Source: Halorussus halophilus (lineage in GTDB: Archaea > Halobacteriota > Halobacteria > Halobacteriales > Haladaptataceae). From it: a stretch of 64,000 nt of DNA. The DNA is taken from NCBI RefSeq assembly GCF_008831545.1, contig NZ_CP044523.1, positions 2,232,001 to 2,296,000 of the forward strand, read 5' to 3'. Of the stretch, positions 2,842 through 25,141 are shown one piece after another (the first letter of the stretch is position 1; the number at the start of each line of letters is the position of its first letter). A model generated the notes under the pieces. It was given only the letters and a program-made list of their open reading frames with translations. It did not search any database and was not told the DNA's origin. Both the position numbers and the translations under genes were made by a program.

Positions 2842-3723
2842 TCAGGCGAACTCTCGCGTCTTCTCCCGGTCTTCCCGTTCTTCGTCGTCGAAGTCGCCAG
2901 TGAACGGGTCGCCGTTCGCGCAGGACCGACAGTAGTAGTTCTCACCCTCTTCGCTGGTGGCGACGGGAACGCCCGCGACGTATCGACGCTTGCGGTAGGT
3001 TCGCTTGACGCCAGTGTTGACGGGCCGAGCGCAGGCCGTACACGGAACGTCCGGTTCTCGGACCACTTCTTGGGTGGTCTCGTGACCGGGACCGAACGTC
3101 GTAATCGGTTTACGGTCGCCGAGTCGCTCCCGGACCGGTTCGAACAGTCCGACTGCGAGCGCGAGGAGGACGAAGCCGAAGCCGACGGCGAACACCGACC
3201 CGCCGGACGTGACGAATCCGACCCCGACGAGCGCGACGAAGATACTCAGGAGCAGGTTGCCGACGTCCGGCGACGACTCCGATGTCGCGTTCGAGGTGGA
3301 GTTCTTACCGCGGAGGTAGCGTTCGGTTCCGCCCTCCCTGATTTCGATTCTGTCCGGCACCCTGTAGTAGTGGTACCACCCGTAGAAGAGGTTGCCAAGC
3401 CCCCACGTGAACAGGAGTAACAGCACGTGAACGCCAATCGACCCGAAACCGCGGTCCACCATGACGACTCTGTCGCCGTAGTCCTTCTCTACGTCCCACC
3501 CTTCGTCGGTGAGGTCTTCGACGCGCCGCCGGAAGTAGCCCGGGTCACCTGCCTTTCCGGCGTCGAAGCCACCTGCGCGTCCGGCGTCGAAGGAGTCGGC
3601 ACTTGCGCGCGTTCTCGCCGACTCCCCTGCGACCGGCGTCCCGCACTGCGAGCAGAAAGCGTCCCCCTGCGCCAGCGCCGTACCGCACTTCGAACAAAAG
3701 TTCGGTGTCGTACGGGAACCCAT
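2842..3723 (-). CDS. Membrane protein with N- and C-terminal zinc-binding modules
   Basis: The protein is 293 residues and its function is unknown. A zinc ribbon opens the protein (Cys10, Cys13, Cys24, Cys27), followed by a Gly/Ala-rich linker with two short repeats around DAGRAGGFDAGKAG. Three hydrophobic segments lie at about 96-118, 154-176 and 178-195, and a second CxxC pair sits at Cys228/231 and Cys265/268. I chose the ATG at 3723 because the zinc ribbon begins just after it; the longer frame upstream overlaps the divergent Mop-like gene. The cysteines probably bind zinc on the cytoplasmic side. Family membership beyond a haloarchaeal zinc-ribbon membrane protein is not recognisable. 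Confidence 0.85.
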   Translation of the reverse strand: MGSRTTPNFCSKCGTALAQGDAFCSQCGTPVAGESARTRASADSFDAGRAGGFDAGKAGDPGYFRRRVEDLTDEGWDVEKDYGDRVVMVDRGFGSIGVHVLLLLFTWGLGNLFYGWYHYYRVPDRIEIREGGTERYLRGKNSTSNATSESSPDVGNLLLSIFVALVGVGFVTSGGSVFAVGFGFVLLALAVGLFEPVRERLGDRKPITTFGPGHETTQEVVREPDVPCTACARPVNTGVKRTYRKRRYVAGVPVATSEEGENYYCRSCANGDPFTGDFDDEEREDREKTREFA

Positions 3724-3811
3724 GGTTCGAACTTCCGCCGCTATCGGCAAGTACGTTGTGTTGCCGGATTGATTCGAACCTTTAAGGGAGGGTACGTCGT
3801 ACCCCGGTGCC

Positions 3812-4018
3812 ATGCCCCTCAGCGCACGCAACAGACTTTCTGGCACCGTCGAATCAGTAGCGACGGAGGGACTGATAGCCGAAGTCGTCGTCGAAACGGA
3901 CGGCGGACAGTCGGTGACGGCCATCATCACCAGCGACTCGGTAGAGCGCCTCGGCATCTCGGAGGGCGAGGAGGTAGACGCCGTCGTGAAAGCGACCGAA
4001 GTGATGATCGAGAACTAA
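3812..4018 (+). CDS. Single-domain TOBE/Mop (molbindin-like) protein
   Basis: This 68-residue protein consists of one TOBE/Mop domain. The N-terminal SARNRLSGTVESV and the later VTAIITSDSVERLGI match the molybdate-binding Mop fold used in molbindins and in ModE/ModC C-termini. By family knowledge it should oligomerise and bind molybdate or tungstate as a cytoplasmic store or sensor; no mod transporter gene is nearby. A TATA-like stretch (CCTTTAAGG, 3779-3787) lies about 27 bp before the ATG, which fits a leaderless transcript. Its stop overlaps the convergent gene at 4015 by 4 bp. Confidence 0.85.
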   Translation: MPLSARNRLSGTVESVATEGLIAEVVVETDGGQSVTAIITSDSVERLGISEGEEVDAVVKATEVMIEN

Positions 4019-4530
4019 TCTTCGAACCACGAGTCGAGCATGGATTCGACTGCTGAATCCTGTGCGCGGAGGTGTTCGAGTTCGGGGTCGGCCCGCTCGA
4101 CTGGCCAGTACTCTGCGACGGCGACTCGGGAGGCGTCGAGTTTCGCCGCGGCCGCGACTTTCTCGTCGTCCAGCGCGAACGGTCGGCCGTCGCCAGCGGG
4201 AGCAGAGTCGTCTACGAGCGTGTGGGCGTCTTCGAGCGCGTCGATTCCTTCCCCGGTCCAGCACGCCTCGCAACAGCGAAATTCGAGGGTGCCGACGTAG
4301 CCCTCCACGTCGGTCGGTGCGAGACCACCGCGAGTTGCCGCGCCCCAGACGAGGCCGAGCGACGAGAGTGTGAGACTCCGGTCGGTCTCCCGACCGCAAG
4401 CCGCACAGACGGTTGCCTCTGCGGCGTAGGGCCAGTCGTCGGGCGGACGAGTGCTGTCGTCTCGCGGGCGAGCGTCGTCGTCGCGCGAACGCGTGGAATC
4501 GTCCGAGGAACGCGTGGAGGGGTCGGACAT
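4015..4530 (-). CDS. Hypothetical protein with four-cysteine zinc-finger-like core
   Basis: A 171-residue protein with no family I can name. The first 30 residues are low complexity, repeating DDSTR-like units, and are probably disordered. The core holds CAAC and CCEAC motifs about 40 residues apart, spaced as in a zinc-binding treble-clef or ribbon. The C-terminal half is acidic and helical. ATG at 4530 is preferred to the GTG one codon upstream. It sits tail to tail with the Mop-like gene. Confidence 0.75.
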   Translation of the reverse strand: MSDPSTRSSDDSTRSRDDDARPRDDSTRPPDDWPYAAEATVCAACGRETDRSLTLSSLGLVWGAATRGGLAPTDVEGYVGTLEFRCCEACWTGEGIDALEDAHTLVDDSAPAGDGRPFALDDEKVAAAAKLDASRVAVAEYWPVERADPELEHLRAQDSAVESMLDSWFED

Positions 4531-4572
4531 CACGACGGAACTGTCGTCCCGACGGGTAAATAAAACAACTGG

Positions 4573-5043
4573 TCAGTCAGTGAACTCGACCATCTCGACG
4601 AGATTGATTCGCCGTTCGTCGCCGCCGTCGAGCGAAAGTCGTCCAGCTACGAGGACTAAGTACTCTCCTACCTCCGGCTCCCAGTTCGCAAAGGGAACCT
4701 CCTGCGCGTAGGTGTACGAGTCAGTCACCGTAACACGCTCGCCACTACCCAGTCGCCGGGCCATCGAGACGGGGTCCCAGCCCCCCACTCGTTCGTAGAC
4801 GAGCGGGTCCAGTTCCGGCGAGAAGACGAACTCGTTGCCGGTTCGATTCTCCACGGTGAAGGTCAACTCGGCTGGCAGAGAGACCGAAGCAGGGTCGATA
4901 CGCAGTTGAATATCGAGGTCGTGTGCCGGACAGACTTCCTCGCCCTCGAACTTGACCGCGGGACATTGCTTCGGGGCGACACATCCCGTCGTCCAGACGG
5001 GAGTCAGCGAAGCTACCGAAGCGAGGACTGCTCGTCGGTTCAC
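4573..5043 (-). CDS. Secreted lipoprotein, beta-sandwich type
   Basis: A 156-residue protein whose start has an arginine pair (MNRRAVLASVASLTPVW) and a lipobox-like TTGC with the candidate lipidated Cys21, as in haloarchaeal Tat lipoproteins. The mature part looks like an Ig-like beta sandwich, with alternating hydrophobic strands such as AELTFTVENRTGNEFVF and GERVTVTDSYTYAQEV. Two further cysteines, in KQCPAVKF and EEVCPAHD, may form a disulfide. It should be anchored outside the cytoplasmic membrane. The start is GTG. The substrate or partner is unknown. Confidence 0.75.
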   Translation of the reverse strand: MNRRAVLASVASLTPVWTTGCVAPKQCPAVKFEGEEVCPAHDLDIQLRIDPASVSLPAELTFTVENRTGNEFVFSPELDPLVYERVGGWDPVSMARRLGSGERVTVTDSYTYAQEVPFANWEPEVGEYLVLVAGRLSLDGGDERRINLVEMVEFTD

Positions 5044-5085
5044 GCTCGGATTTCCGAACGAACTGTCAAGTATCCTCGGACTGCA

Positions 5086-5907
5086 TCACTCGTTCAGGAA
5101 CGACAGCACCGTCTTGTCGAACGCGCGCTTTCGCTCTTCGAACGCGCCGCGACCGACGCCTGCGAGGAGTTCGATGCGGGCGTTCGGAATCTCCGTTGCC
5201 GTCTCGCGGAGAATCGACTCCGGGAAGAAGTAGTCTTCCGCGCCACCGACGACGAGCGTCGGCGACTCGATGCCGTCGAGGGAGTCGCCCGCGTCGTGGG
5301 CGGCCATCGCGCGACAGGAGACCGCAACGTCGGAGATTTCGGCCGGTTCTTTCAGCAGTGGGCGGCCGACCGTCCGAATCAGCGGCGGATAGAGCCACTT
5401 CCGATACCCAGTGTACGTAACCGGCACGGTGTCGAGGTACACGTCGAACCACCAGCCACGCTCAGCCCAGTCGGCCCACCGCTGGAGGGTTCGGTGGCCC
5501 TCTTCGCCGACGCGACTGCCTGCGACGCCGACGACCAGTCTCCGCACGAGTTCTGGGTGGTCGGTCGCGAGATGCTGGGCGATTTGTCCGCCGAGCGAGA
5601 CACCCAGTACGTTCGCAGGCGAGAGGTCTTCCTCGGCGAGCAGGTCGGCGTACTCGGCGGCCATCTCGCGGGTCGTGACATTTTCCGGGAGTCCACGGCG
5701 ACGGCCGATTACGTAGACGGAAAAGTCGTCGGCGAAGTTTCGGTAGTAGTACCGCTGGAGCAGCAGCGAGAAGAACGAGGACGTAGTTTCTGGCTGGAAC
5801 GCGTCGCTCAGGCCAGTGAAAATCACGAGCGGGCGCTCGCCGGAGCCGAATCTGACGTACGGGTACTCGCCGCGTTCGTGCCTGAAGACGCCCTGTTCGG
5901 GTCCCAT
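5086..5907 (-). CDS. Alpha/beta hydrolase fold protein, catalytic His apparently lost
   Basis: A 273-residue single-domain alpha/beta hydrolase. The nucleophile elbow is GVSLGG with Ser104, and the acid is probably Asp225 in GGAEDYFFP. At the place where the family has a Gly-His motif before the last helix, the sequence reads GVGRGAFEER, with Arg253 where His is expected; the codon at 5149-5151 is CGC, one transition from CAC. Either another His serves, or the protein is inactive or has a non-catalytic role. It precedes the lipoprotein gene on the same strand with a 42-bp gap, and the two may share a transcript. Confidence 0.82.
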   Translation of the reverse strand: MGPEQGVFRHERGEYPYVRFGSGERPLVIFTGLSDAFQPETTSSFFSLLLQRYYYRNFADDFSVYVIGRRRGLPENVTTREMAAEYADLLAEEDLSPANVLGVSLGGQIAQHLATDHPELVRRLVVGVAGSRVGEEGHRTLQRWADWAERGWWFDVYLDTVPVTYTGYRKWLYPPLIRTVGRPLLKEPAEISDVAVSCRAMAAHDAGDSLDGIESPTLVVGGAEDYFFPESILRETATEIPNARIELLAGVGRGAFEERKRAFDKTVLSFLNE

Positions 5908-5926
5908 GCTATCAGTCCGGTCGCGG

Positions 5927-6676
5927 TTATTTCTCGTCCAACACGACCGGGACGCCCCGACTCGCCACGTCGGCCGCGAACGCGCCCGAGTCGGTTTCGA
6001 GCGCCTCGAACGTGTTGTAGTGAATCGGCAACACGAGGTCCGGGTCCAACTCCTCGGCTAGCTCCGCGGCCTCCTTGCGGTCCATGGTGAACGACCCGCC
6101 GATGGGCGGGCAGAACAGCGACACGTCGAGTTCCGCGTGGCCGTCCAAGGCGTCGGAGTCGCCCGGCCAGAACACTTCGGTGTCGCCGAGCGTGAGGTGG
6201 TAACCGACGCCGAAGCCTTCGGGGTGGTGCGGCTCGCCGTCCGACTTGGTGTGGGGGCCGTTCGGTTCGTTGTACGCTTCGACTGGCCGGACGATGACCT
6301 CGCCGAACAGTTGGTCGGTCTCCTCGTTGACCTTCACGACTTCGTAGGGGAGTTCGTCCAAATCGTTTACGTCGCGGTCGATGTTCGGTGGGTACACCGC
6401 GTCGTAGACGACCACGGTGGCGTCCTCGCTCGCCACGCGCTCGATGGCGTCCGAGTCGTAGTGGTGGTCGTGCGTGACCAATACGAGGTCCCCATCTTCC
6501 GGCCGGTAGTCGGTCGGTTTGGGGTGGCCGACGCTCGGCGAATCGGGCGTCCACTCGCCGGTAAGCGTGCCGTAGCGGCCGGGGTCACTGTAGACGACTG
6601 TGCCGTCCGGACCTTCGAGTCGGAGTCCCGCGTAGCCGAGCCAATCGACCAGCAGGTCGTCGTGTCGAATCGTCAT
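5927..6676 (-). CDS. Metallo-beta-lactamase-fold hydrolase (UlaG/YcjX-like MBL family)
   Basis: A 249-residue protein with the MBL-fold metal signature THDHHYDSDA (HxHxxD type). WPGDSD supplies the bridging Asp and LPIHYNTF the late His. It resembles the UlaG-like L-ascorbate-6-phosphate lactonase group, which in archaea is mostly of unknown substrate. Start ATG at 6676 gives the usual short N-terminus (MTIRHDDLLVDWLGYAG); the upstream extension to 6769 has no family character. The next gene on the strand starts 19 bp downstream, so an operon with the hydrolase and lipoprotein is likely. Confidence 0.86.
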   Translation of the reverse strand: MTIRHDDLLVDWLGYAGLRLEGPDGTVVYSDPGRYGTLTGEWTPDSPSVGHPKPTDYRPEDGDLVLVTHDHHYDSDAIERVASEDATVVVYDAVYPPNIDRDVNDLDELPYEVVKVNEETDQLFGEVIVRPVEAYNEPNGPHTKSDGEPHHPEGFGVGYHLTLGDTEVFWPGDSDALDGHAELDVSLFCPPIGGSFTMDRKEAAELAEELDPDLVLPIHYNTFEALETDSGAFAADVASRGVPVVLDEK

Positions 6677-6905: not shown

Positions 6906-7967
6906 ATGTCGATCACTGTGACGTTGGCCGATAGCGACATCCTGAGCGACTGGAACGAGAAACTCACAGACTCCCCGCAGTCGAACGTGTTCCACCGACG
7001 TGAAGTCCTCTCGCTGCTCGAAACCACTGCTGACGCCCGTCTCCATCACTTGGTCGGGTACAACGGCGACGAACCGATGGGGTTCTTGCCGATATTCGAG
7101 ACCGACAGACCACCACTGAAGTTGGTGGCCACGTCTCCTAAAGACCTCACTGGGGGACTCGTCTTGGGACCGGTGCTGTTCAACTTCGAGAATCTGAAAC
7201 AGCGAAAGGCCGAGCGATATCGCCACGAGTTCGTCGAGGGGTGTTACGAGTGGATAGACGAGAACGTCGCTCCAGACGTTACCGACGTTCGAACGAACAA
7301 TCGGTTCTCGGACGTGCGACCGTTCCAGTGGCGGGGAAGCGACCTCACGAAGAACCACACGTACATAATCGACCTGACTCCGGGGTGGGAAGAGACGATG
7401 GAAGGATTCGACAAAGAGACTCGGCGACTCATCAGGAACACGAACATCGACGACGACGCGATTACGCAGGGTGGACCAGCAGAGATTCGGACCGTCATCG
7501 AACAGGTGGCAGAGCGCTTCGAAGAGCACGGGGAAACTTACGGTATCGACCCATCATTCGTCGTCTCCCTCTGTGAGAGACTCCCCGACGAGCAGGTGTT
7601 TCCCTACGTGTTTCGTGACGACGGCGAAATACTCGGCGGCCTCATCGCCTTCGAGTTCGGGGACACGGTGTACGCGTGGGAGGGGACTGCGAGAACAGAC
7701 ACGGACGTTCCGGTCAACACGCTACTGTACGGCCACGTGATGAAGGAGGGGATAGGCCGGGGAAGAACTCGGTGTAACATCACGACTGCGGACAATCAGC
7801 GTCTGTGTCGGTACAAATCGAAGTACGGACCGTCGCCGGAACCGTACCACGTCTTTCACGACTACAACTCTCCGATGGCGAAGGTCGGACTGAAGAGCTA
7901 CGAACGGCTTCCGGAGGCGTATCGTGCCCCGGTCGAACGGTTGTCGGCGATAGCACGGTTTCTATAA
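6906..7967 (+). CDS. FemAB/BioF2-like acyltransferase (GNAT superfamily)
   Basis: A 353-residue protein of the FemAB/BioF2-like GNAT family: an N-terminal half with FHRREVLSLLE and GFLPIF, then a second lobe with the helical KETRRLIRNTN segment and a core strand GGLIAFEFGDTVYAWEGT. In bacteria such proteins add amino acids to cell-wall precursors. In archaea, which lack murein, they are usually placed with surface-polysaccharide or lipid-linked sugar modification; the substrate here is unknown. I chose ATG 6906 (MSITVTLADSD), though in-frame starts at 6855 and 6885 are possible. It is more AT-rich in wobble positions than its neighbours and ends 5 bp inside the convergent gene, signs compatible with transfer. 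Confidence 0.82.
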   Translation: MSITVTLADSDILSDWNEKLTDSPQSNVFHRREVLSLLETTADARLHHLVGYNGDEPMGFLPIFETDRPPLKLVATSPKDLTGGLVLGPVLFNFENLKQRKAERYRHEFVEGCYEWIDENVAPDVTDVRTNNRFSDVRPFQWRGSDLTKNHTYIIDLTPGWEETMEGFDKETRRLIRNTNIDDDAITQGGPAEIRTVIEQVAERFEEHGETYGIDPSFVVSLCERLPDEQVFPYVFRDDGEILGGLIAFEFGDTVYAWEGTARTDTDVPVNTLLYGHVMKEGIGRGRTRCNITTADNQRLCRYKSKYGPSPEPYHVFHDYNSPMAKVGLKSYERLPEAYRAPVERLSAIARFL

Positions 7968-8159
7968 ACCAGACGCCGAAGCGGGTCGGAGAGCGACCGG
8001 AACCGACAACGTCGGGGCAACCGATTGCCACAGTAGTAGGCCGATTACGAGCCACGTCACGACGACCAAGGCGGCAACGAACCAACCGACTGTTACGCTC
8101 AATCCGTCGGCATCTGAGACTTCCTCGCGGAGTTGGTGAGCGCGCTCGCGCCAGTTCAC
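7962..8159 (-). CDS. Small single-pass membrane protein
   Basis: A 65-residue protein: a short charged N-terminus (NWRERAHQLREEVSDADG), then one strong transmembrane helix centred on WFVAALVVVTWLVIGLLLW. I prefer the GTG at 8159. It starts 10 bp after the stop of the upstream membrane gene, whereas the longer GTG at 8210 would overlap that gene by 41 bp. It is probably the second gene of an operon with 8170-8637. No family recognised. Confidence 0.65.
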   Translation of the reverse strand: MNWRERAHQLREEVSDADGLSVTVGWFVAALVVVTWLVIGLLLWQSVAPTLSVPVALRPASASGL

Positions 8160-8169
8160 GAACAGAACG

Positions 8170-8637
8170 TCACCCCGCGAGAACTTGCTTGCTTCGCCGC
8201 GACCAGCCACGAATCCAGTAGGCGGCTCCGACCGGCACCATCGAAAGCGCGAGAGCGACCATCGGTTCCCAGAGACCGAACCAGGCGTCTCCCTCTGACC
8301 CTCCGGCGGCGTGGTAGGTCAGAACCCCAGTGAGGACGAGCGTAGTGGCCGCGTACCAGCGCCAGCGTAGGCCGCGGTCCTCGTGACGAGACTGCCCCCC
8401 ATCGACTACGAGGCCCGTGAACGCCGCGACGCCGACGAACGGCGTCGCGTACAGCAGGAAGACGCCGAACGCAGTCGTGACGGGATGAGTCGGTCCGAGC
8501 GTGGTCGAGGACGCGAGCGCGAGGAGTGCGATTGGCAGTTCCGCGACGGCCGCGAGGGCGAGGTAGCGCCACTTCGAACCCTGTCCCGAGGAATCCGACC
8601 GACCGACGTGTCCAGAGTCGGTTGCTCCGCTCGACAT
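8170..8637 (-). CDS. Four-helix integral membrane protein, function unknown
   Basis: 155 residues with a polar Ser/Gly-rich N-terminus and four hydrophobic helices at roughly residues 25-45, 52-75, 92-110 and 125-145. Charged loops (SRHEDRGLRWRW) and the C-terminal RSKQ suggest both termini face the cytoplasm. No domain is recognisable. The gene begins 38 bp before the stop of DNA ligase on the same strand and could be a downstream member of that transcript. Confidence 0.72.
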   Translation of the reverse strand: MSSGATDSGHVGRSDSSGQGSKWRYLALAAVAELPIALLALASSTTLGPTHPVTTAFGVFLLYATPFVGVAAFTGLVVDGGQSRHEDRGLRWRWYAATTLVLTGVLTYHAAGGSEGDAWFGLWEPMVALALSMVPVGAAYWIRGWSRRSKQVLAG

Positions 8638-17248: not shown

Positions 17249-18100
17249 ATGCCGATTTCGCGCCGGGGGTCCGGTGTCGTTCCAGCGACTCGCGCGCTCG
17301 CCTCGCAAGTCCACCCCGTGTTCATGCTCCCGCCAGTCGCCGCCTCGTGGTCCGGGAGCATGCTCGCGGGTGCGTTCGACCCGTTCGTCGGCGCGCTCCA
17401 CATGACCGCCATCTTCGCCGCGATGTACACCGCACACGTCAAGGACGGCTACGTGGACTTCTACGTCCGCGGCGAGGACGACGACCACCCGCTGACCGAA
17501 GGGGGATGCAGAGTCGTGCTCGGGATTGCGTCGGTCCTCTTTTTCGTCTGTCTCGCTGGCATCTGGGTCGTCGTCGGACCAATCGCGGTCCTGCTCACCC
17601 TGCCGGGGTGGCTCATCGGCTACCACCACGCGCCGCAGCTCGACATGAACCCCGTGACTGCGACGACTGGCTATCCGCTCGGCATCGCGCTGGCGATTCT
17701 GGGAAGCTACTACATGCAGGTCGGAACACTGGAACCGATTGCGCTCGCGTTCGCGCTCGTCTTCCTCGTCCTGCTGTCGGGCGTGAAAGTCGTTGACGAC
17801 GCTCAAGACTTCGAGTACGACCGCTCCATCGACAAGCGGACCATCGCAGTGGTGGTCGGCAAGCGGCGTGCCCGCACTGCCGCCTACGCGCTCATGCTGG
17901 TCGCACTCGCGCTCGTCGTCGCGTTCACCACGCTCGCGGTGTTTCCACCGAGTAGCGTCGCGGCAGTCGCGGGGTTCGGCGCAGTCGCCGTGGTCGCCCA
18001 CCGGGCCGACCCGGAACTAGCGACCATGCTACTCGTCCGGGGGTCGTACGTCTTCCTCGCGCTGTTGCTCGCGGCGGTCTGGTTCCGGCCGCTCGGGTGA
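17249..18100 (+). CDS. UbiA-family prenyltransferase-like membrane protein
   Basis: A 283-residue protein with about eight hydrophobic helices. The two Asp-rich loops of the UbiA superfamily are present but drifted: HVKDGYVDFYVRGEDDD and VVDDAQDFEYDRSIDKRT. It should attach an isoprenoid chain to an acceptor at the membrane face (quinone, lipid or heme precursor); the acceptor is unknown. I chose ATG 17249 because GGAGG at 17239-17243 is a well-spaced ribosome binding site; the GTG at 17225 lacks one. It overlaps nothing but begins close behind the aminotransferase, so co-transcription is likely. Confidence 0.82.
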   Translation: MPISRRGSGVVPATRALASQVHPVFMLPPVAASWSGSMLAGAFDPFVGALHMTAIFAAMYTAHVKDGYVDFYVRGEDDDHPLTEGGCRVVLGIASVLFFVCLAGIWVVVGPIAVLLTLPGWLIGYHHAPQLDMNPVTATTGYPLGIALAILGSYYMQVGTLEPIALAFALVFLVLLSGVKVVDDAQDFEYDRSIDKRTIAVVVGKRRARTAAYALMLVALALVVAFTTLAVFPPSSVAAVAGFGAVAVVAHRADPELATMLLVRGSYVFLALLLAAVWFRPLG

Positions 18101-18159
18101 GGCGATGCAATCGGAACCCACTGCCAATCTTTTTATCAGGTTCCTGTGTCGCTCGGCAC

Positions 18160-18651
18160 GTGCAAAAGACAGTTCTTGGTCCGGGGTTCGGCGAGGTAGA
18201 CTCAGACGAAATCGACCACGCTCGGTTCTCGTTCGGCGTTGCGACCGACCATCCCGACCACAAGCGAGTCGTCCTCTCGGGTCTCGCGGCAGATGGTGAA
18301 ACCGTCGGCGAACAGACGCGAGAGACGCTCGAACTGGTCGAGCGAACCCTCGCAGACGTAGGTGGGTCGATGGACGACCTGGTGACGATGCGCTGGTTCG
18401 TGGACTCCTCGATACTCTCTCGTGAGACACAGACGCGACTGCACGAAGTTCGCGCGGAGTTCTTCGACCCGCCACACTACCCCGCCTCCACGATGGTCGG
18501 CGCGGAACTACTCGGTGACGACGTGCTGGTCGAAATCGAGGCGGAAGCCGAGGTGCCGAACGACGAGTGGAAGACGACCGCAATCGTCGGCCGAGACCAC
18601 GAGGAACTGACCGCCAGCGAGGCCCGGGAGTTACTGTTGGAAGACGAGTAG
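18160..18651 (+). CDS. RidA/YjgF family protein
   Basis: 163 residues starting at GTG, with the RidA trimer fold: FSFGVATDHPDHKRVVLSGL, the helix ETLELVERTLADVG, and HYPASTMVGAELL near the C-terminal Arg/Glu pocket. Canonical RidA proteins hydrolyse reactive enamine/imine intermediates made by PLP enzymes; the pocket here is divergent, so activity is uncertain. A TATA-like CTTTTTATC (18129-18137) lies about 27 bp upstream, which sets a leaderless GTG start. The upstream extension to 18097 is rejected. Confidence 0.82.
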   Translation: MQKTVLGPGFGEVDSDEIDHARFSFGVATDHPDHKRVVLSGLAADGETVGEQTRETLELVERTLADVGGSMDDLVTMRWFVDSSILSRETQTRLHEVRAEFFDPPHYPASTMVGAELLGDDVLVEIEAEAEVPNDEWKTTAIVGRDHEELTASEARELLLEDE

Positions 18652-18746
18652 GCCACGACCGCAGTTAGTCACCGACTGGTTCTGCAGATATTAATTTCTG
18701 ATTTTTTAACCCTAGATTTAATAGATTGAGGATAGATTAAATTCCT

Positions 18747-19439
18747 ATGGCAGACGATAGCCATGACCAAGTGAACCGTAGAAAAGTGCTCTCCGCGGCA
18801 GGCGGGATAGGGTTCGGGTCGATAACCGGAATGTTCGGCTCGGACCTCGGTTCCCGGGAGACCGCCGAGAAGTTCAACAGTCAGACGGGAGTCGAAGAGG
18901 CGTTCGACGTCGTCGGTGACGACCTTCTGACCACGATGAGTCAATCGGAACACGTCGATAGTGGGATCGTTCCCTCGGTTTCCGACTTCGTTCCGACGAG
19001 TGCCGAAGAGTACTTCGAAGCCGAAGAAGGGACGTTGGTCACTCCGATGGTGAAAGACGGCCAAGCCACTGTCCGAATCGAGTACTCCAAGGACATCCCG
19101 GGCGGAGAAGTGGTGTTCAAACTGTTCCCGCTACTCGGGAAAGCCCAAGGACTCGTCGTCAACGCGAACGGCATCTCCGTCTTCAAGAGCGAAGACGGGA
19201 CGATTTCGGAGCAGAACTACGACCCCAAGGTCGAACCGCAAGCCTGTACCGGAAGCAACTGCCTCCAGTCGGAGGTCTGTCGGTGGCAACCGACCCGTCA
19301 CGAACACACGGAACTGTACTGTTGCTACCAGGACGGCGAGATAGTCGATTGCTGTTGGGGAAGTATCCAGTACTACGGCTGTGTTCCCGACTGCGACACG
19401 AACATCTGCGCAGATTACTGCCAGGGGACTTGCGGATAA
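18747..19439 (+). CDS. Tat-exported Cys-rich protein, halocin-like precursor candidate
   Basis: 230 residues. The N-terminus has a twin-arginine signal (VNRRKVLSAAGGIGFGS). Residues about 35-165 form a proregion with few cysteines, none before Cys167. The last 64 residues then hold twelve cysteines (167, 172, 178, 192, 193, 202, 203, 212, 216, 221, 225, 229) and end in TCG. This architecture of Tat signal, long proregion and small disulfide-rich C-terminal domain matches the halocin C8 precursor plan, though I see no residue-level match. A TATA-like GATTTAATAG (18714-18723) lies about 30 bp before the ATG in an AT-rich leader. No separate export or immunity gene is adjacent; in halocin C8 the proregion itself gives immunity. 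Confidence 0.75.
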   Translation: MADDSHDQVNRRKVLSAAGGIGFGSITGMFGSDLGSRETAEKFNSQTGVEEAFDVVGDDLLTTMSQSEHVDSGIVPSVSDFVPTSAEEYFEAEEGTLVTPMVKDGQATVRIEYSKDIPGGEVVFKLFPLLGKAQGLVVNANGISVFKSEDGTISEQNYDPKVEPQACTGSNCLQSEVCRWQPTRHEHTELYCCYQDGEIVDCCWGSIQYYGCVPDCDTNICADYCQGTCG

Positions 19440-19571: not shown

Positions 19572-20465
19572 ATGGCAACCGACGGTCCGTGGACGCACGA
19601 CCAGATACTCGTGAACGGCGTCCGACTGCACTACGTCGAAGCGGGCGAGAAAGACGCTCCTTTGGTCGTCCTCCTCCACGGCTTTCCGGAGTTCTGGTAC
19701 TCGTGGCGAGCGCAGATTCCGGCACTCGCCGACGCGGGGTTTCGCGTCGTCGCGCCCGACATGCGCGGGTACAACGAGTCGGAGAAACCCCACGGCGTGT
19801 CGAGCTATCGGTCCGAAGAACTCGTCGGCGACGTGGCTGGCCTCGTCCGCGAACTCGGCGAAGAGCAAGCCCACGTCGTCGGCCACGACTGGGGCGGCAT
19901 CGTCGCGTGGCAGACGGCGATACGACATCCCGAAATCGTGGACAGACTCGCCGTGCTGAACGCGCCACACCCCGGTGCGTACCGCCGAGAGTTACAACGG
20001 AACACGGACCAACTCCGCCGCTCGTGGTACGCGCTGTTCTTCCAACTGCCGTGGCTTCCCGAGCGACTACTGGGCGCACGAAATTGTGCGGTACTCGCCG
20101 ACTTGCCCGATTCCGCTACGAATCCCGAGGCGTTCACCGAGACGGACGTGCGCCGATACCGCGAGGCCGCCAGTCAACCCGGTGCGCTCAGGTCCGCACT
20201 CAACTACTACCGGGCGGCGTTCCGCGAGAACCTGCGGACCGAACTGCGCGCGCTCGTCGGCGGCGAGCGTCCAGACCAGTCCGTTCGCGCGCCAACACTC
20301 CTGCTCTGGGGTGAGCAGGACCCGGCGCTCTGCGTCGAGTTGACCGAAGAATTGGCGAAGTGGGTGCCCGACGTTCGCGTCGAGCGACTCCCCGACGCGA
20401 GTCACTGGGTGCAGAACGACGCGCCGGACCGAGTGAACGAGGCACTCGTCGAATTTTTGCGATAA
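19572..20465 (+). CDS. Alpha/beta hydrolase, epoxide hydrolase/dehalogenase-like
   Basis: 297 residues. The HGFPEFW oxyanion motif (His36) and the GHDWGG nucleophile elbow with Asp106 instead of Ser mark the epoxide hydrolase/haloalkane dehalogenase branch. The late acid lies in WGEQDPAL and the catalytic His in DASHWVQNDAP. A cap domain occupies about 130-225. The expected reaction is hydrolysis of an epoxide or similar small ring or halide through an alkyl-enzyme ester. It is a single gene, unrelated in strand context to the Cys-rich protein 132 bp upstream. Confidence 0.9.
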   Translation: MATDGPWTHDQILVNGVRLHYVEAGEKDAPLVVLLHGFPEFWYSWRAQIPALADAGFRVVAPDMRGYNESEKPHGVSSYRSEELVGDVAGLVRELGEEQAHVVGHDWGGIVAWQTAIRHPEIVDRLAVLNAPHPGAYRRELQRNTDQLRRSWYALFFQLPWLPERLLGARNCAVLADLPDSATNPEAFTETDVRRYREAASQPGALRSALNYYRAAFRENLRTELRALVGGERPDQSVRAPTLLLWGEQDPALCVELTEELAKWVPDVRVERLPDASHWVQNDAPDRVNEALVEFLR

Positions 20466-23175: not shown

Positions 23176-24021
23176 TCAGCGGTCGAACTCGTGGCCGTCG
23201 AGATAGACGTGGACGCCGTCGTCACAGCGAAGGTCGGTGAGTTCTCCAGTGAACCGGAAACTGTCGCCACCGCCCGCGACGGCACCCGTCACGACGTTGC
23301 CGTCGATGCAGTCTTCCGAATCGACGGTAATCCAACGGTGGTCGATGGCGTCGGGCGCACAACTCTTGGCAGACTTTTCTATGTGGTCGCCCGAGACTGC
23401 GAACTGGTAGTCGAGGACGGTCGAACCACCGCCCCCACAGAAGGTGACGTGGTGTTTCTCGCGGTCTTCGTCTCCCTTGCACTCACAGCGGTCGCGGCGT
23501 TTTTCGTCGTGTTTCTTCTTGCTACGCTTCTCCTCGCCGTATCTCCGAAAGTCGAGGGTGAGCGCGTTCCCGTAGCAGGTGCGCGTGTGGGTGACCGGGC
23601 AGGCGATGAGTCGGCACTTGTACTTCTCGGTCCCGAAGCCAGTGAGCGTGACGGCGACCCGGATGCTCGTCGCGCCGGTGACCACGCTGTGGAAGCCACC
23701 GTACCAGTCGTCTTCGCCGATGCGAGCGACCTGCGCGCCGACCTTGCAACGCCGAGAATCGACCCGGTCCATCCCGCCGATTCGGCCGCGGGTCTTCGCG
23801 CGGTCGCGACTGAGGACTTCGGCGTCGGTAGTTTCGACGTTCAGTGGCGGGCCGTCCTGCGCTCTCGCGGCCCCTGTCGCCGTGAGCAGGGAGCCGCCTG
23901 CCACCGCAGACGCGCTCCATCGCAGGACCGCCCGGCGCGAGGTCAAGTCGGTCGTGAGGCACTCTATGCAGGTCTGCTGTTCGTCTTCTCGCGGTCGTTC
24001 GGTGTTCTCTTCGTCGGTCAT
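23176..24021 (-). CDS. Tat-exported protein with Cys and a Lys/Arg-rich central segment
   Basis: 281 residues. After a polar N-terminus containing CIEC, the twin-arginine motif SRRAVLRW and a hydrophobic stretch ending ARAQDG form a Tat signal. The mature part has about ten cysteines and a basic, charged run around RRYGEEKRSKKKHDEKRRD, uncommon for an exported haloarchaeal protein; repeated His/Asp there could bind metal. It probably folds as a disulfide-stabilised beta domain (STVLDYQFAVSG and later strands). No family recognised. Confidence 0.75.
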   Translation of the reverse strand: MTDEENTERPREDEQQTCIECLTTDLTSRRAVLRWSASAVAGGSLLTATGAARAQDGPPLNVETTDAEVLSRDRAKTRGRIGGMDRVDSRRCKVGAQVARIGEDDWYGGFHSVVTGATSIRVAVTLTGFGTEKYKCRLIACPVTHTRTCYGNALTLDFRRYGEEKRSKKKHDEKRRDRCECKGDEDREKHHVTFCGGGGSTVLDYQFAVSGDHIEKSAKSCAPDAIDHRWITVDSEDCIDGNVVTGAVAGGGDSFRFTGELTDLRCDDGVHVYLDGHEFDR

Positions 24022-24220: not shown

Positions 24221-25141
24221 TCAGAACTCCGCGACGACTTCGGGCACACAACCCACGTCTTCCTTGTAGTAGCCACAGTGGCTCGTCACGGAGTCGGCCA
24301 CGTCGTGGTCCTCGTAGTTGGCTGGCGGCGTGCCGTCACAGCCGACTTCACCCACGGCCTTCCCGAGTTCGTACGTTCCGTAGATGTCCTGCAATACTTG
24401 GTCGTCGCGCTTGTGGAAGTTGTCGAAGGAGGCCGCTGCCGTTTCGACGTCGGTGTGGTACTGATTGCCGTCGGCCACGCTGTGGTCGTCTGCCGCACCG
24501 CCGAGGAGCGAGGCCGACGCGACGAGGTTCTCGTAGCCGTTTTCGGCGAGCCATTCGAGGGTGCTGAGGACGACCCGCGCGCCCAGCGAGTGGCCGACGA
24601 GACGAAGCGTGAGGTCCGAATACCGACTGCGGGTGTCTTCGAGGAAATTACCGAGTTTCGGGCCGTTGCGTACGGCGACCTCCTTGGCCGACTCCCAATC
24701 GCGGTCGGACCCGTAACTGAAGCCGACGAACGATTCGCTGTAGTCGTTCGCGCGGAACGCCTGTTTCGCCGTGTCGAAGATGTCCAGTGCTTCTTGCTCG
24801 GGAACGTTCCATCCGTGGACGAACACGAGCAGTTCCTCGCCGCTGTAGACGCCCGCGAAGTCGCCCGCAGTCTCCCAATCGGTCTTCGTGTGTCCGTCGG
24901 TGAGCGTCACGCCGTCGGTACCGACCGTGAAGTGCCCGCGGGTCGTGACGCGCGGGAACGAGTCCGGACCACCGTCGTTCGAACCGCAGGCGGCGTCGAT
25001 AGTGTCGGCGGAAATGGCAGTTCCGCTCGCCCCGAAGACGCCGAGACCGGCGGTTGCCGTCACACCCACAGAGCGAAGTACGTCGCGGCGAGTGGACGTT
25101 TTCTGCCGCTCGTTTGCTCGGTTAGTTCCAGTATCGTCCAT
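24221..25141 (-). CDS. Tat-exported alpha/beta hydrolase (DUF900-like lipase fold)
   Basis: 306 residues with a Tat signal (STRRDVLRSVGV) and a mature hydrolase fold. VFVHGWN gives the oxyanion motif and LVGHSLGARV carries the Ser nucleophile. The Asp is possibly in LGGAADDHS, and a late His may lie in VTSHCGYY. The HGWN form resembles the DUF900 alpha/beta hydrolases. Six cysteines suggest disulfides outside the cell. Substrate unknown, possibly an ester or lipid. Confidence 0.84.
   Translation of the reverse strand: MDDTGTNRANERQKTSTRRDVLRSVGVTATAGLGVFGASGTAISADTIDAACGSNDGGPDSFPRVTTRGHFTVGTDGVTLTDGHTKTDWETAGDFAGVYSGEELLVFVHGWNVPEQEALDIFDTAKQAFRANDYSESFVGFSYGSDRDWESAKEVAVRNGPKLGNFLEDTRSRYSDLTLRLVGHSLGARVVLSTLEWLAENGYENLVASASLLGGAADDHSVADGNQYHTDVETAAASFDNFHKRDDQVLQDIYGTYELGKAVGEVGCDGTPPANYEDHDVADSVTSHCGYYKEDVGCVPEVVAEF

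Follow-up and report, generated by a model that had tools for sequence, protein, structure and literature searches.

The gene at 18747-19439 of the window, by which we mean the whole analysed stretch of 64,000 nucleotides of Halorussus halophilus DNA, encodes a 230 aa preproprotein (P0001) that is very probably the precursor of an exported, disulfide-rich peptide. The protein is one of a large haloarchaeal family that is absent from Pfam and NCBIfam. The function of such a peptide might be antagonistic: we put the odds of this at about even, and somewhat better than even once the exported disulfide-rich precursor is granted. For the whole chain, leading from an exported proprotein through a six-disulfide peptide to an antagonistic, halocin-like action on other cells, we arrive at a probability of about 0.48. 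The parts of the gene and its neighbours, in window coordinates, are as follows.

18097-18651: RidA-type gene, named from its match in annotated records
18717-18723, + strand: TTTAATA, putative TATA box centred at -27 from the ATG, as read from the sequence
18747-19439, + strand: whole gene for P0001, ATG start; supported by the orthologue match and purifying selection
18747-18854, + strand: residues 1-36, predicted twin-arginine export signal with NRRKVL; from the sequence, the RR of the family and the Tat-model matches of relatives
18855-19244, + strand: residues 37-166, cysteine-free proregion; supported by the near-absence of cysteine in pooled family proregions
19245-19436, + strand: residues 167-230, cysteine-rich tail with 12 Cys and a net charge of -7; from the sequence, the cysteine parity of the family and the identity with the H. 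mediterranei tail
19572-20465: alpha/beta hydrolase, named from its match in annotated records

The preliminary description of this locus had proposed 230 residues with a Tat-type N-terminus, a Cys-free middle of 130 residues and a 64-residue tail with 12 cysteines, and this anatomy proved exact. The cysteines occupy positions 167, 172, 178, 192, 193, 202, 203, 212, 216, 221, 225 and 229; residues 1-166 contain none, and the tail, of exactly 64 residues, has a GRAVY of -0.40. The window has 337 stop-to-stop frames of 100 codons or more, and the runner-up among them has 7 cysteines in its final 64 residues, so the Cys-rich tail of P0001 is not a product of chance. The twin arginines are residues 11-12, and the h-region has a GRAVY of 1.0. 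The twin-arginine motif is thus present, but P0001 itself matches no Tat-signal model of Pfam or NCBIfam, and inspection of its sequence revealed no clear AxA cleavage site. We therefore base the Tat assignment on the relatives: RR is invariant across 66 aligned members, and 22 and 8 of the 66 match the Tat models TIGR02811 and PF10518, respectively.

The leader had rightly been called AT-rich, since the 95 bases upstream of the ATG have a GC content of 37% against 62% for the window (57% for the P0001 gene itself). The position of TTTAATA would fit a leaderless haloarchaeal transcript, and a T/A-rich box is found at a similar position upstream of the Haloferax mediterranei orthologue (see below). 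The earlier remark that no dedicated exporter is adjacent also holds: the flanks are the RidA-type gene and the alpha/beta hydrolase, and no transporter, protease or immunity-like gene adjoins. Elsewhere in the window, 23176-24021 (-) and 24221-25141 (-) encode two more proteins with Tat-type signals, the latter being alpha/beta hydrolase-like with a VHGWN motif. P0001 has no match in Pfam, NCBIfam, PHROGs or PDB, and a single-sequence AlphaFold model gave no confident fold (mean pLDDT 36.5). Weak matches to fucose-binding lectins (E 0.03-0.5) and to cysteine synthase (E 0.05 or worse) were at chance level, and we rejected kinship with either.

The nearest relative of P0001 is WP_014732775.1, a hypothetical protein encoded on the megaplasmid pHME505 of Haloferax mediterranei ATCC 33500. 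The two proteins are 63% identical over 100% coverage with all 12 cysteines aligned, identity being 78% in the tail and 58% in the proregion. The codon comparison gave an overall dN of 0.25 against synonymous sites near saturation; the P0001 gene is therefore genuine, and purifying selection acts on it. The tail is its most constrained part (dN 0.155, compared with 0.29 for the proregion). Only the gene itself is common to the window and pHME505: the plasmid copy has different neighbours, encoding a halocyanin-domain protein and an HTH protein, and the window gene lies on the largest contig of its genome.

A 13-member profile (A1) was searched over 392 haloarchaeal genomes, accepting matches at E ≤1e-10 that extended past the Tat signal. 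Family members, often several copies each, were found in at least about 45 of these genomes, a lower bound obtained with seven candidates scored per genome. All 83 distinct members collected share the plan of signal, proregion and Cys-rich tail. The genome of Halorussus halophilus harbours three family members (C1:2250756, 3525858, 2412391). Distant relatives, of 21-30% identity, turned up in the 28 genomes of the window's taxonomic family, and within the genus there were distant members only. When the draw was widened to the phylum, family matches were confined to the haloarchaeal order, and the viral contigs scanned yielded no relative. Apart from the Tat-signal models, no Pfam or NCBIfam match recurred among the 66 members scanned. 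The preliminary description had counted homologues across many genera with conserved enzyme-like residues against itself; the many genera are indeed there, but the near-invariant residues, namely the cysteines, RR, L15, P128 and A135, make up no enzyme active site. We found no existing description of the family in the literature, where an earlier mention among archaeal toxins is possible; a 2019 survey of archaeal toxins and archaeocins in mBio is said to list candidate archaeocin families.

The GC content of the family genes is below that of their flanks in 71 of the 83 loci. Together with the fact that the gene alone is common with the plasmid, this would fit a spread by single-gene transfer. 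Tandem copies occur in L064, L103 and L137. The L103 array (3185-5496, +) consists of three members with tails of 10, 8 and 14 cysteines and is followed by a protein that carries NRCLPC close to its N-terminus, has a probable membrane segment and matches no NCBIfam model. At L082 (G004:C2:669000-682000; the gene is that of L003), a member proregion continues into an unrelated Cys-free end while a cysteine-rich tail can be read in an overlapping frame, which marks a frameshifted or broken copy.

The neighbourhoods of other members offer a partner that the window gene lacks. At no fewer than nine loci, members directly adjoin the gene for a surface lipoprotein that carries the peptidase motif HExxH (L064, L065, L070, L075, L076, L078, L098, L119 and L181). 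Since there is roughly one such peptidase gene per genome in the window's taxonomic family, its adjacency in 8 of 77 loci greatly exceeds the chance expectation. The association, though real, is partial, because most peptidase copies elsewhere do not adjoin family members and no copy was found at halocin C8 loci. According to a poorly resolved proregion tree, peptidase adjacency changed at least five times. P0001 falls into a seven-member group (SH-aLRT 91, with a long-branch warning on one join) that includes the members of L064 and L065, both with an adjoining peptidase; the Halorussus halophilus genome has two such peptidase genes, both away from the window gene. HExxH is intact in L064, L065, L070, L078, L098 and L181, while the second zinc histidine is lost in L075 (HELSD, 7409-8560), L076 (HELSS, 5011-6240) and L119 (HELGG, 3523-4713). 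Copies that had changed from protease to binder would be well suited to immunity. The L098 peptidase is akin to NF038145, the Hvo_1808 family of surface proteins, with which it shares a lipobox and surface location, but it is not a member (E 2.4e-23, 83 bits against a family cut-off of 200), and the three adjoining copies named above are HExxH-degenerate. Hvo_1808 itself, which has a lipobox, was recovered mostly from the cell-associated fractions of Haloferax volcanii (PMC2945643).

Other neighbours gave less. A DrrA-type ABC ATPase directly adjoins members in L120, L145, L099 and L101, and in L125 a permease lies between them; an ABC-2-like permease accompanies the ATPase in those loci, which fall into two clades. 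The pair is reminiscent of peptide-immunity transporters, but given the two clades and the commonness of ABC genes, we consider it a weak lead. We dropped TatC as a family neighbour because several instances represented the same conserved chromosomal site in synteny or lay 2-3 kb off. At L188 (2313-3188, -) and L185 (near 2983, -), in G024:C1 and G014:C1, respectively, an unrelated precursor is encoded directly downstream of the HExxH lipoprotein. Its last ~65 residues contain 10 cysteines and are rather hydrophobic, and it does not match the halocin C8 model TIGR04449; the L188 copy is a 292-codon frame giving 282 aa from the likely Met, with a Tat-type signal. This precursor may represent another candidate microhalocin family.

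A further property of the family is the parity of its cysteines. Tails carry 6-22 of them. All members but one (82 of 83; binomial p 2e-23) have an even number, and when the proregions are clustered at 40% identity, this holds for 54 of 55 representatives; inside clusters, counts shift by two or four. The search profile might be biased towards Cys-rich tails, but it has no means of preferring even numbers. The odd exception, L078, has 11 cysteines in a genuine reading up to the stop; its genome is of 62% estimated completeness, and the adjoining peptidase gene is distributed over more than one frame. In the proregions of the 83 members, 11,130 residues in all, there is a single cysteine, whereas the cysteine rate of ten window genes would predict ~81. 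Taken together, the even counts, the Cys-poor proregions and the 40 even counts (of 82) that cannot be divided by four argue for all-paired extracellular disulfides rather than Cys4 metal sites, and point to the tails being exported, fully disulfide-bonded peptides. The preliminary description had left the choice between a new antimicrobial class and a disulfide-rich surface peptide, and it is the extracellular, disulfide-rich character common to both that the even-cysteine rule supports. The median tail has a GRAVY of -0.34 and a charge of -6. Several other cross-genome orthologue pairs likewise have a tail better conserved than the proregion; in some tandem paralogues of one genome, it is the tail that has diverged further (the L137 pair is 59% identical in the proregion and 35% in the tail). 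The junction between the two parts is D/G-rich and followed by a weak V-[TS]-x-Q-x-C pattern; at this junction, Q is enriched in the last six residues (33 of 83 members against 15 expected).

The resemblance to a halocin C8-type preproprotein suggested earlier survives as a layout, kept in all 83 members, but not as kinship. Halocin C8 of Natrinema, made as ProC8, likewise combines a Tat signal, a Cys-free proregion and a C-terminal Cys-rich peptide in one gene, and it has a similarly patchy spread among haloarchaea. Its hydrophobic peptide, however, is ~76 aa long with 10 cysteines, unlike the 64 aa, 12-Cys, acidic and hydrophilic tail of P0001, and the same difference separates the families: halocin C8-type tails are hydrophobic (median GRAVY +0.75, charge -3) and mostly have 10 cysteines, whereas the tails described here are hydrophilic and vary in cysteine number. 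A search with the sequence of the HalC8 peptide led to one genome, with 100% identity over 76 residues; the precursor there has 283 aa, the published length of ProC8 (PMC11509114), and is therefore a sound positive control. TIGR04449 matched this control at E 1.9e-15 and had no match to P0001 at E up to 10 or to the 66 family members at E 0.01. The earlier caution that the sequence of P0001 is not close to halocin C8 was justified.

One might still suppose that P0001 does belong to the halocin C8 family, with a HalI-like immunity proregion, but has diverged so far as to be unrecognisable. Beyond the same order of parts, such a relationship could draw on a weak co-linear alignment of 83 family proregions with 21 halocin C8-type ones (hhalign score 16.8, above the maximum of 12.8 among 30 column shuffles), but the hhalign probability was 1% and a reversed control scored higher (20.3). 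The family profile gave 27.8 bits with the Tat signal of ProC8 alone and less with the whole of ProC8, so that match is owed to the signal peptide. Likewise, the one halocin C8-type protein drawn in by an iterated profile was not significant once its Tat signal was removed, and we rejected this candidate link. With the negative TIGR04449 searches and the opposite tail chemistry added, we find common descent improbable: there is no detectable homology in tail or proregion, and the P0001 family would work on the halocin C8 plan without membership in that family being demonstrable.

Among the other readings, metal binding by a metallothionein-like or zinc/copper-binding secreted protein is suggested by the extreme cysteine density of some tails, for instance that of L133 with 22 Cys in 57 residues. 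Metallothioneins and zinc-binding proteins have a cysteine number set by their metal sites, often a multiple of four, and the parity described above, export by a Tat-type route into an oxidising milieu and the lack of any metal-protein match in Pfam, NCBIfam or PDB make this reading very improbable. We give slightly less credit still to a small disulfide-rich subunit of an extracellular enzyme. It has a precedent in the methylamine dehydrogenase light chain, which combines Tat-type export with a small six-disulfide domain, but neither P0001 nor the family profiles have a match in PDB, no constant partner gene stands beside the members, and their cysteine number is not fixed. A more serious competitor, to which we assign a minor though appreciable share of the probability, is a surface or secreted disulfide-rich peptide that does not kill and whose tail binds a partner on the same or a neighbouring cell as a ligand, adhesin, kin-recognition or signalling molecule. 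The hydrophilic, acidic tail, the solitary window gene devoid of an immunity-like neighbour, the conservation of orthologous tails across genera and the divergence of the L137 tandem tails, as in recognition repertoires, would all agree with it. However, no constant receptor-like partner gene accompanies the family, and the patchy single-gene spread fits weapons too.

For the whole chain up to an antagonistic peptide, we counted the anatomy of P0001, the even cysteine numbers and Cys-poor proregions, the better conserved tail of orthologues, the patchy distribution (the nearest relative on a Haloferax megaplasmid, distant members only in the genus and unshared flanks), the tandem copies and the adjacency of the HExxH lipoprotein. 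Against it stand the acidic and hydrophilic tail, given that hydrophobicity is reported for the halocins known to date (PMC11509114), the window copy devoid of a dedicated flanking immunity or transport gene and the absence of a confident fold in the AlphaFold single-sequence model. On the antagonistic reading, P0001 would leave the cell by the Tat route, and the Cys-free proregion would accompany the tail, probably holding it or aiding its folding; a conserved proregion would hardly be the specific immunity partner of such different tails. The tail would oxidise into a compact hydrophilic peptide of ~64 residues with six disulfides, would probably be cut off outside the cell near the EPQ-A-C junction and, once released, would most likely act on other cells as a halocin-like antagonist.

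Such a plan has parallels. HalC8 is released as the C-terminal peptide of its precursor, and a serine protease activates HalH4 and HapP once they are outside the cell (PMC12893001). The plan proposed here for the P0001 family is that of HapP (HFX_0892) and HalH4, secreted as inactive precursors and activated by a protease outside. The nearest counterpart of the window gene comes from their host, H. mediterranei, too, as a separate gene on pHME505; the activity of HapP, by contrast, lies in its N-terminal helices. Unidentified antagonistic precursors remain in H. mediterranei after hapP deletion (PMC12893001), and we propose the pHME505 orthologue as a candidate for one of them.

It is tempting to go further and to imagine that haloarchaea widely share an arsenal of disulfide-rich weapon peptides without kinship to halocin C8, in which one conserved proregion serves very different even-Cys tails, and in which the HExxH lipoprotein of some loci would be a maturation protease or, where the zinc site is lost, a tail-binding immunity protein. 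We offer this extended scenario tentatively and hold the odds to be against it.

To our knowledge, sequences are available for no more than a few peptide antibiotics of archaea. The family adds dozens of defined candidates, including one orthologue in the genetically tractable H. mediterranei. If the peptides do not kill, they would, by virtue of the even-cysteine rule, still form a large group of proteins, so far uncatalogued, that are extremely rich in disulfides and are produced at very high salt.
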